Origin: a virus
Virus record (IMG/VR): IMGVR_UViG_3300025889_000121
Span: 1-61,938 of that record
Reading direction: 5' to 3' (one strand)
DNA: 61,938 bases
In this document: positions 23,950 to 31,788 of the stretch, in pieces
How the letters are laid out: each line of letters opens with the position of its first letter
How positions within the stretch are numbered: the first letter of the stretch is position 1
Notes under the pieces: generated by a model
Seen by the model: only the letters and a program-made list of their open reading frames with translations
What the model was told of the DNA's origin: nothing
The model's database searches: none
Position numbers and translations under genes: made by a program

Positions 23950-24861
23950 ATGGCAATTTCAAGAGCGCAGTTATTAAAAGAATTGCTCCCTGGCCTTAAT
24001 GCTTTATTCGGAATGGAATACCAGCGTTATGGCGAAGAGCACAAAGAGATCTACGAGTCTGAAACTTCAGAAAGATCCTTTGAAGAAGAAACAAAACTAT
24101 CAGGCTTTGGTAATGCACCTGTTAAAGGAGAAGGTTCTGCCATCTCTTATGACAATGCTCAAGAAGCTTGGACAGCTAGATACAACCACGAAACCATTGC
24201 TTTAGGTTTCTCACTAACAGAAGAAGCTGTTGAAGATAACCTCTACGACACTTTATCTGCTCGTTACACTAAAGCATTAGCACGTTCAATGGCTAACACT
24301 AAACAAGTGAAAGCTGCTAACGTTCTTAACAACGGTTTTAGTGGTAGTTATGTAGGTGGTGATGGCAAAGCTTTATTTGCTACAGATCACCCTCTAGTAA
24401 ATGGTGGTACTAACAGTAATACACAGGCAGTTGCTGCCGACTTAAACGAAACTTCATTAGAAAATGCTGTGATTCAAATCGCAGGATGGACAGATGAAAG
24501 AGGTTTATTAATTGCTGCTAAACCACGTAAATTAGTAATCCCACCAAACTTGCAATTCGTTGCAACTCGTTTATTAGATACTGAACAACGTGTCGGTACT
24601 GCTGATAACGACATCAACGCGATCAAGTCAAATGGTGCGATTCCAGAAGGCTATGCTATCAATCATTTCTTGACTGATACAGATGGATACTTCTTAACAA
24701 CCGATGTACCTAATGGTATGAAACATTTTGTTCGTACTCCATTAACTACATCAATGGACGGCGACTTCGACACAGGTAACGTACGTTACAAAGCTCGTGA
24801 GCGTTATTCATTTGGTTGGTCAGATCCCCTCGGCATGTGGGGCTCTCAAGGTGCTGCTTAA
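23950..24861 (+). CDS. Major capsid protein (Mu gpT-like)
   Basis: The 303-residue protein resembles the Mu-like gpT capsid group: QLLKELLPGLNALFGMEY at the start, the ARYNHETIALGFSLTEEAVEDN region, KPRKLVIPPNLQFVATRLL and the end WSDPLGMWGSQGAA. It should take the HK97 fold. It is followed by a strong terminator (24883-24913), so the head operon ends here and the gene is likely the most abundant product. Confidence 0.9.
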   Translation: MAISRAQLLKELLPGLNALFGMEYQRYGEEHKEIYESETSERSFEEETKLSGFGNAPVKGEGSAISYDNAQEAWTARYNHETIALGFSLTEEAVEDNLYDTLSARYTKALARSMANTKQVKAANVLNNGFSGSYVGGDGKALFATDHPLVNGGTNSNTQAVAADLNETSLENAVIQIAGWTDERGLLIAAKPRKLVIPPNLQFVATRLLDTEQRVGTADNDINAIKSNGAIPEGYAINHFLTDTDGYFLTTDVPNGMKHFVRTPLTTSMDGDFDTGNVRYKARERYSFGWSDPLGMWGSQGAA

Positions 24862-24882
24862 TTTGTAAGCGCACTCCTCCTG

Positions 24883-24913
24883 AAAAACCCAGCTCCCTCT
24901 CGGCTGGGTTTTT
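24883..24913 (+). terminator. Rho-independent terminator after the capsid gene
   Basis: An 11-bp stem AAAAACCCAGC / GCTGGGTTTTT with a nine-base loop, ending in the T run. Confidence 0.93.
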
Positions 24914-24980
24914 CTTTACCTAAAACTCATACATTTCATTAGATACTTTAATACTATCCTTTGTTACTATACGTCTAACT

Positions 24981-24996
24981 GTATTACATGTAATAC
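24981..24996. promoter_or_regulatory. Perfect 16-bp palindrome before pqqA
   Basis: GTATTACATGTAATAC lies 14 bases before the AGGAG of the pqqA-like gene. It could be an operator or a leader hairpin. No convincing consensus promoter was found in 24914-25010. Confidence 0.5.
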
Positions 24997-25022
24997 AGAA
25001 TCTAAACTTAAGGAGAAACATT

Positions 25023-25094
25023 ATGTGGACTAAACCAGCAGCTACAGAAATGAGATTTGGCTTTGAAGTAACTATGTACGTATGCAACAAGTAA
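25023..25094 (+). CDS. pqqA: PqqA, pyrroloquinoline quinone precursor peptide (23 aa)
   Basis: The 23-residue product begins MWTKPA and carries [10 protein letters not shown], the hallmark of PqqA (W-x-K-P-A ... R-x-G-[FL]-E-V-T-[ML]-Y). E15 and Y19, in E-x-x-x-Y spacing, are the residues that the radical SAM enzyme PqqE, with the carrier PqqD, links to build PQQ. The length equals the bacterial peptide. AGGAG at 25011-25015 gives optimal spacing. No pqqB, C, D or E is in the window, so the phage would feed a host pathway. The gene sits between two terminators, apart from the structural operons. Confidence 0.92.
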
Positions 25095-25188: not shown

Positions 25189-25211
25189 AAGAGGCCTAGC
25201 GCCTCTTTTTT
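25189..25211 (+). terminator. Rho-independent terminator of the pqqA cassette
   Basis: AAGAGGC, loop CTAGC, GCCTCTT followed by more T. It closes a transcription unit of about 200 bases that contains only the pqqA-like gene. Confidence 0.9.
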
Positions 25212-25230
25212 GTTGTATAATTACATGAAA

Positions 25231-25306
25231 TAGCGTATGATTTTATTTATCTGGGAACATCCAGCTTATCAGACTGCCCCAGCAGACGCATACACGACGG
25301 ATAAGC
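25231..25306 (+). ncRNA. Structured leader RNA candidate with possible pseudoknot
   Basis: Within 76 bases there are two short hairpins, CTGG/CCAG (25251-25264) and CTGC/GCAG with a CCCA loop (25274-25285). There is also a 7-bp pair GCTTATC / GATAAGC (25264-25270 with 25300-25306) and a crossing 5-bp pair GTATG / CATAC (25235-25239 with 25289-25293). It lies 24 bases before the 25331 start and downstream of a Mu gpT-like capsid gene. I recall a published RNA motif named Mu-gpT-DE for that setting, but could not compare sequences. Confidence 0.45.
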
Positions 25307-25330
25307 TTAACTTTGTATGGAGAAATCAAA

Positions 25331-25807
25331 ATGTCAAGTACAACCTTTTCAGGTCCAGTCACATCCACAGCTGGCTTTAATGGACCAGTCGTAGTAGATA
25401 ATACAACTCTTAACACAGGTGCTGCAGTTACAACAACACTTACTCGTGCTCAATCAGGTACTCTTTTTACTGTTGATGGTACAGGTGATATTGTTGTTAA
25501 TATGCCAGCTCTAAGCACAGATAACCCAGGTACAACCTATGAATTCTTTGTTACTACAGCAGTAGGTGCTGGTACAACAGTAACATTTGTATTACCAGGT
25601 TCAGCAGTATCTAATTTCTACGGTGCTTTATCTCTTATGGGTGGCACAGCTGCTAACCCAGCAAGTGACGTTGCAGGCGATACATTAACTTTAGTAAACT
25701 CAACAGCAGTTAATGCAAGAGTTAAACTAACATGTATCACTGATGATGGTGCTAACTCTACATGGAAAGCTGAAACACTTTCTACACCACTCGCAACTAT
25801 TGCTTAA
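25331..25807 (+). CDS. Structural beta-protein (158 aa)
   Basis: I use ATG 25331 (SSTTFSGPVTSTAGFNGPVVV) with GGAGA upstream; the frame extends six codons further 5'. The protein is rich in Thr, Val, Gly and Ala with repeating strands, typical of phage head or fibre-associated proteins. No charged catalytic motif. It is the first gene after the structured leader. Confidence 0.75.
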   Translation: MSSTTFSGPVTSTAGFNGPVVVDNTTLNTGAAVTTTLTRAQSGTLFTVDGTGDIVVNMPALSTDNPGTTYEFFVTTAVGAGTTVTFVLPGSAVSNFYGALSLMGGTAANPASDVAGDTLTLVNSTAVNARVKLTCITDDGANSTWKAETLSTPLATIA

Positions 25808-26212: not shown

Positions 26213-26509
26213 ATGGCAACGACTAAGAAAAAGGGAATGGGGATTAAAACTTCTGTAAAGTCGGGTAACTTTCGCCCGACTAAGCAGGGTGCAGGTATGA
26301 CGAAGAAAGGTGTCGCAGCCTATCGTCGTGCTAATCCTGGTTCTAAATTACAAACCGCTGTTACAGGAAATCCAAAAAAAGGTTCTAAAGATGCTAAACG
26401 ACGTAAGTCGTTCTGTGCTCGTTCTGCAGGTCAAATGAAAGATTTTCCAAAAGCAGCAAAAGACCCTAATTCAAGATTACGTCAAGCGCGTAGAAGGTGG
26501 AAATGTTAA
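26213..26509 (+). CDS. DUF6321-like basic protein (98 aa)
   Basis: GAGMTKKGVAAYRRANPGSKLQTAVT, AKRRKSFCARSAGQMKDF and the C-terminal SRLRQARRRWKC match a conserved phage family that I recall as DUF6321. It is highly basic and could bind DNA inside the head. AGGAG upstream fits the start. Confidence 0.75.
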   Translation: MATTKKKGMGIKTSVKSGNFRPTKQGAGMTKKGVAAYRRANPGSKLQTAVTGNPKKGSKDAKRRKSFCARSAGQMKDFPKAAKDPNSRLRQARRRWKC

Positions 26510-31272: not shown

Positions 31273-31788
31273 ATGGCTCTTGTTTTAAAAGACAGAGTAA
31301 AAGAGACCACAACTTCGACTGGTACTACTACCATTACGCTTGCTGGCGCCGTTACAGATTTTCAATCTTTTTCAGCCATAGGCGACGGTAATACTACGTA
31401 TTACACGATAGCTCTATCAAATGGAGATGAGTGGGAAGTAGGTCTAGGTCAATATACGGCATCAGGTACTACTTTATCTCGTGATACAGTCCTAGCTTCC
31501 TCTAACTCTGGTAGTTTAGTTAATTTTTCTGCGGGCACTAAAGATGTTTTTTGTGTGTATCCTGCAGGTAAATCCGTGTATTCTGATAGCAACGGAGATG
31601 TTGATGTGTCTGGTGAAATCACTGGACAAGAAATGACAGCTTCAAACGGATTATTTGTTAATAATAAAACAGTAGGCTCAGACTATACAATTCCTACTGG
31701 ATATAATGCAACGAGCACAGGCCCCATGACTGTAACTTCAGGCGTTACAGTTACCATTCCAACAGGATCAAGATGGCTGGTGCTCTAA
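31273..31788 (+). CDS. Fibre-related structural protein (171 aa)
   Basis: ALVLKDRVKETTTSTGTTTITLAGAV at the start and a strand-rich C-terminus resemble short fibre-attachment proteins common in phages. AGGAGG-type site upstream; it ends directly at the next ATG. It may link the repeat protein downstream to the tail. Confidence 0.72.
   Translation: MALVLKDRVKETTTSTGTTTITLAGAVTDFQSFSAIGDGNTTYYTIALSNGDEWEVGLGQYTASGTTLSRDTVLASSNSGSLVNFSAGTKDVFCVYPAGKSVYSDSNGDVDVSGEITGQEMTASNGLFVNNKTVGSDYTIPTGYNATSTGPMTVTSGVTVTIPTGSRWLVL

Follow-up and report, generated by a model that had tools for sequence, protein, structure and literature searches.

Phage-borne pqqA genes: apparent maintenance of the PQQ supply in methanol-eating bacteria by the phages that infect them

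Introduction

A glutamate and a tyrosine residue of the small peptide PqqA are the source of PQQ. One PqqA is consumed for every PQQ formed, and the proteins PqqB to PqqE act catalytically. In the Methylophilaceae, both XoxF and the genes for PQQ biosynthesis belong to the core genome (PMC4109929). A connection with phages was published in 2020, when PqqA was described in the Lake Baikal methylophage population VP_266, which is T4-like and, like VP_139, carries a methanol dehydrogenase (Coutinho et al., 2020, PMC7678222). Viral pqqA, pqqD and pqqE are also listed in a 2026 sediment study (PMC13188868).

The subject of this work is a pqqA gene in a 61,938-bp IMG/VR virus record, which is termed the window in the following. 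It differs from the host pqqABCDE pathway in being phage-encoded and in standing alone beside a capsid gene, without pqqBCDE. Just as in VP_266, the phage-encoded peptide is predicted to serve Methylophilaceae. However, VP_266 is a T4-like phage with methanol dehydrogenase, whereas the window phage is of the HTVC023P/SU10 type and no dehydrogenase was found in it. Furthermore, the Lake Baikal study covers one population, whereas the gene is found here in phages in culture as well as on at least 169 contigs. The phage PqqA described in an earlier note on this DNA is thus not without precedent, as such a gene had already been published. Its generality, on the other hand, was not found in the literature consulted and appears to be unreported: several unrelated types of cultured methylophages, many independent captures and carriage of the precursor only.

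Identification of the PqqA peptide

The earlier note had described a frame of 24 codons, preceded by AGGAG at suitable spacing, that encodes a 23-residue peptide with E15 and Y19 spaced as E-x-x-x-Y. Translation and the upstream sequence bear out every one of these features. Assignment to the PqqA family is likewise upheld by profile searches with the window peptide. Pfam PF08042 (PqqA) is matched over model positions 1-19 of 19 (E = 6.3e-11) and the NCBIfam equivalog TIGR02107 over the full model (E = 5.8e-12), and the scores given in Table 1 are well over the respective cut-offs of 21.1 bits and 20. Since they amount to about twice these values, the gene was counted as genuine pqqA. The peptide thus exceeds the curated cut-offs and contains both the Glu and the Tyr, three residues apart, and the ribosome-binding site together with dN/dS ratios of 0.04-0.11 suggests a small, probably translated gene selected at the level of its peptide. 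No other PqqA match is present within the whole record (E = 4.1e-11 for the window frame), and a degenerate PqqA codon pattern was matched once in the window and in none of 100 shuffles. A chance match as the explanation is ruled out by the HMM scores and the shuffles. Comparison of the window peptide with solved structures gave no match. The window frame is a real PqqA gene.

The peptide has the features of the Methylophilaceae type, namely the common length, W2 and P5, R11, the stretch G13-F14-E15-V16-T17-x-Y19 and a C-terminal NK or NR. It is one residue off common host peptides, with K23 in place of R in those ending in VCNR, or C21 in place of M in those ending in VMNK.

Genomic setting of the cassette

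The window phage is of freshwater type and encodes terminase, portal, capsid, DNA polymerase, primase/helicase, endolysin and an SU10-type adaptor; with this gene content, the record is no piece of a host chromosome. Its size is close to that of the related phages HTVC023P and MinM2, which comprise 60,878 and 65,014 bp. pqqA lies inside the phage genome with phage genes on both sides. The capsid protein is 58-70% identical to those of MinM2, HTVC023P, DSL-LC04 and CRP-901, and HTVC023P, DSL-LC04 and MinM2 share the capsid and the order of head genes with the window phage. In these three phages, however, the cement or head gene follows directly, about 105-155 nt after the capsid gene, and pqqA is absent, whereas in the window pqqA separates the capsid gene from the next head gene, with a terminator hairpin on each side (Table 1). 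As relatives lack the cassette and terminators flank it, pqqA is an insertion and apparently a self-contained transcription unit. A PHROG search with the next head gene gave no match. Directly 3' of a homologous capsid gene, pqqA was also found in 20 other phage loci, most of them with terminators on both sides.

Table 1. Features of the pqqA cassette and its surroundings in the window
Feature	Position	Strand	Evidence or remark
Major capsid protein gene, directly 5' of the pqqA cassette	23950-24861	+	PHROG 371 major head protein, E 8e-23
Capsid-gene terminator, hairpin and U-rich tail	24882-24914	+	13-bp stem, -19.8 kcal/mol, equalled by 0/200 shuffles
20-bp perfect palindrome CTGTATTACATGTAATACAG, 5' of the pqqA ribosome-binding site	24979-24998	+	sequence; candidate 5' hairpin or operator
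Ribosome-binding site AGGAG, 7 nt 5' of ATG	25011-25015	+	sequence; similar sites in most phage homologues
pqqA, 23-residue PQQ precursor peptide	25023-25094	+	PF08042 42.4 bits, TIGR02107 45.1 bits
pqqA terminator AAGAGGCCTAGCGCCTCTT + TTTT	25189-25212	+	fold z -2.9
Leader RNA of the next head gene, conserved three-helix interleaved pseudoknot	25251-25319	+	covariation, 0/500 shuffles
Next head gene	25331-25807	+	by position homologue of DSL-LC04 cement protein

A scan for sigma-70 promoters upstream of the window pqqA yielded nothing above chance. Inverted repeats of at least 7 bp occur upstream of pqqA in 38% of 167 phage loci, as opposed to 9% both in mononucleotide shuffles and at the host copies. 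They vary in sequence but are similar in position, lying about 20 nt upstream of the start and often 15-30 nt before the ATG. These repeats, including the palindrome in the window, are candidates for an mRNA hairpin or an operator.

Distribution among viral contigs and cultured phages

Degenerate DNA scans revealed pqqA on at least 169 distinct IMG/VR contigs, on which the immediate neighbours fall into roughly 65 upstream and 83 downstream categories, approximate figures that stem from simple ORF calling. Immediate neighbours were used for grouping because clustering of the loci by shared proteins produced one giant component, chained through mosaic genes. Within the family of the window phage, pqqA occupies two different sites. 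One directly follows the capsid gene; the other, used in L012 and L016, follows the homologue of window gene 26213-26509, and the copies at the latter site encode a peptide type different from that of the window. Two sites and two peptide types within one phage family indicate repeated independent gains. Other peptide types are encoded by the phage pqqA genes of L003, L009, L012, L016, L017, L092 and L109, which suggests that these phages infect PQQ producers not belonging to the Methylophilaceae.

Contamination with host DNA was considered as a source of the viral loci and rejected: at a threshold of at least 50% identity over at least 60% of the ORF, 155 of the 169 have no protein in common with bacterial pqqA loci, and for 12 of the remaining 14 the match is to L236. 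This contig, placed in a Flavobacteriaceae MAG, encodes the exact PqqA peptide of the window together with proteins common to the 12 viral loci and is apparently a mis-binned phage contig. None of the viral pqqA loci resembles bacterial pqqA neighbourhoods; the lone "bacterial" exception, L236, itself looks like phage. Matches to pqqA on plasmids were ordinary chromosomal or megaplasmid genes of lower identity.

When the 23-residue peptide was compared by tblastn with 50,697 phage records, 12 records matched. Nine of them are cultured phages of Methylophilales/Methylophilaceae (Venkman, P19250A, MEP301, MEP401, MEP402 and four Melnitz phages), which cover at least four unrelated phage types; the remaining three are a phage from Manatee Spring and two contigs that carry the label Acinetobacter phage. 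In the cultured carriers pqqA is likewise a small stand-alone gene, its peptide being 73-91% identical, but their genomes are unrelated to that of the window phage and the insertion sites differ. Nine is the number of cultured phages returned by this search, and MEP431-434, EXVC038S, HIM624-A and phiMB624-A, which are listed in the taxonomy, were not among the matches, so that the statement does not extend to every cultured methylophage. One of the Acinetobacter-labelled matches, L127 (CAKLQF020000010.1, Acinetobacter phage MD-2021a), was inspected. It consists of chromosomal sequence containing the complete pqqABCDE operon; the label is apparently wrong, and the match in effect served as a positive control.

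The expectation that the gene is easily missed by gene callers proved justified, as pqqA is not annotated as such in any of the nine cultured phages. Five have no feature at its position and the Melnitz phages have hypothetical proteins only, the one at the pqqA site of Melnitz-1 being on the opposite strand. In the papers on MEP301, Melnitz and Venkman, pqqA goes unmentioned (PMC8024684, PMC9004378, PMC8163748). With its mere 24 codons, the gene was probably overlooked because of its size. Judged by their terminases, the nearest relatives of Venkman are SAR11 phages and those of MEP402 are phages of Roseobacter-type hosts, Vibrio and Pseudomonas; none of these relatives on other hosts was among the 12 tblastn records. 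The gene therefore tracks the host and not the phage lineage.

Conservation, selection and hosts

The prediction that E15 and Y19 are conserved in related phages was borne out. Among the matches listed, both residues are kept in 121 of 121 phage copies, window included, although they had been left free in the scan concerned. A separate search based solely on the capsid protein found pqqA in 6 of 80 loci of close capsid relatives, again with E15 and Y19 in all six. In this set, pqqA scores were either 108-126 or at most 20, with nothing intermediate and no decayed copies. The presence of the cassette in only 6 of the 80 loci makes it dispensable in the wider phage family, and its presence is probably host-dependent. 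At positions not fixed by the first scan dN/dS is 0.11, and a value of 0.04 was obtained for the capsid-linked set; judged by these ratios, pqqA is under purifying selection. Among the matches listed, the commonest phage PqqA peptide is the commonest host peptide.

In a scan that represented each species of bacteria and archaea by a single genome, the peptide type of the window was found almost solely in Methylophilaceae among the matches listed. The 30 Methylophilaceae genomes contain 1-12 copies of pqqA (median 4), and PqqE with full score is present in 29 of them, usually as a single copy. These counts agree with an earlier report of 3-12 pqqA copies as opposed to single copies of the other pqq genes (PMC4109929). 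A host gene related to the phage pqqA is thus present in the Methylophilaceae, the presumed hosts of the window phage. The best matches of the tail-fibre gene at 31273-31788 are the Manatee Spring pqqA phage (62%) and the OM43 phage Venkman (59%); those of a second tail protein are cyanophages. As the tail evidence is mixed, the host assignment is graded as probable and not as certain: peptide type, tail-fibre match and GC suggest that the window phage probably infects a methylotroph of the Methylophilaceae.

Proposed function and alternative explanations

Based on comparative sequence evidence, we consider it very likely that the window carries a genuine pqqA gained by a phage whose host is a methylotroph of the Methylophilaceae type and that this gene serves to re-supply the component of the PQQ pathway that is consumed stoichiometrically. 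As depicted by this model, the phage would produce PqqA during infection, host PqqD and PqqE would cross-link Glu15 to Tyr19, and PqqF/G, PqqB and PqqC would complete PQQ. The cofactor would be raised or maintained, the periplasmic methanol dehydrogenases XoxF and MxaF would stay active, and energy and carbon would become available for phage production. Carriage of pqqA alone could be explained by the peptide being used one-for-one and the enzymes being catalytic and persisting after host expression falls; once host gene expression declines, the peptide should be the first component to be exhausted. Since the hosts meet a high demand for PQQ with extra pqqA copies, a phage copy would extend their dosage strategy. 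PMC9851590 and PMC7936290 cite prior work according to which cell extract converts added purified PqqA to PQQ, and over-expression of pqqA alone raises PQQ in Gluconobacter. A search of 51 virus records (the window and 50 others) revealed no PqqE over the cut-off, and no PQQ dehydrogenase (TIGR03075) was found in 50 virus records; as many of these records are fragments, the absence of the two proteins is not absolute. Transfer of a complete pqqABCDE operon to the phage finds no counterpart in these data, as PqqE over the cut-off is lacking. The proposal of the earlier note that precursor is supplied to a host with pqqBCDE is retained as the best reading, with a peptide type encoded by Methylophilaceae, 29 of 30 of which have full-score PqqE, and with cultured carriers infecting Methylophilales.

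The same note had also considered recruitment of the peptide for another role. A short RiPP-type substrate could indeed turn into an inhibitor by loss of Glu15 or Tyr19, and the phage peptide might then act as a decoy that occupies PqqD/PqqE and shuts off PQQ synthesis, or be modified for other use. Both reactive residues are, however, retained in 121 of 121 (among the matches listed) and in 6 of 6 phage copies, and the most frequent phage peptides among the matches listed are letter-for-letter identical to host peptides. A decoy with the same letters as the host peptide is implausible, so that we regard this explanation as highly unlikely and the other role as disfavoured. It is just as hard to believe that pqqA is a functionless host fragment carried passively. 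Many small pqqA genes are scattered in the host genomes and would be easily picked up, but passive carriage is at odds with dN/dS ratios of 0.04-0.11, the absence of decayed copies among the capsid relatives, the ribosome-binding sites, the terminators that flank pqqA on either side in most loci linked to the capsid gene, the recurrence of independent gains, with two sites used within a single phage family, and the confinement to methylophages in a search of over 50,000 phage records.

PQQ could also be raised for a purpose besides methanol oxidation, for example for another PQQ dehydrogenase or for redox protection. The phage copies of other host types (L003, L012, L016, L017, L092 and L109) are in line with this, as their hosts need not be methylotrophs. 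We nevertheless consider it improbable, since XoxF and PQQ biosynthesis genes are part of the Methylophilaceae core genome (PMC4109929) and methylophage contigs encoding methanol dehydrogenase have been published (PMC7678222). Supply of precursor for methanol oxidation is the preferred reading. On a broader scale, pqqA is likely to be a general, host-tracking hallmark of methylotroph phages, captured often by unrelated lineages as a stand-alone cassette that brings the substrate rather than the enzymes.

As a rule, the auxiliary genes of phages code for enzymes. In the present case, the phages seem to provide a ribosomal substrate peptide that is spent with each cofactor molecule, and the oxidation of methanol in lakes and coastal seas would thereby be tied directly to infection by phages. 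The unannotated pqqA genes in nine cultured phages make the proposal testable at once with existing strains. If it is true, a small-ORF search for pqqA could serve as a simple sequence marker that flags methylophages in metagenomes.

A pseudoknot RNA adjoining the cassette and a further observation

The leader of the next head gene is a conserved pseudoknot of three interleaved helices: H1 (CYRGG/CCYRG) crosses H2 (8 bp), which in turn crosses H3 (6 bp), around the core GACUG-N-CCYRG-CAGACG, and the element ends at the ribosome-binding site of the gene that follows the capsid gene. Across 21 distinct sequences, the share of paired cells is 98.7%, compared with 72.4% in shuffles and 33-41% upon sliding, figures in which helix 3 is favoured as its 3' strand was placed by complementarity. 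Sixteen of 19 pairs change on both sides, and helix 2, taken at fixed offsets, covaries in all of its eight pairs. At the thresholds set by Rfam, no family was matched anywhere in the window, and matches near pqqA were at chance level only; the pseudoknot is without a family there. It adjoins pqqA yet occurs with and without it and is no part of pqqA function. The same structure is present in L020, L046, L102, L116, L131, L137, L144, L145, L311, L345, L354, L361, L385 and others, and it may be a cis-regulatory RNA of a new kind that belongs to a phage head gene.

Finally, the records OQ594354.1, OL906435.1 and PP438419.1 state differing cyanobacterial hosts, and all three have a length of 65,014 bp and identical match scores. 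They may represent one phage, perhaps that of a contaminating bacterium.
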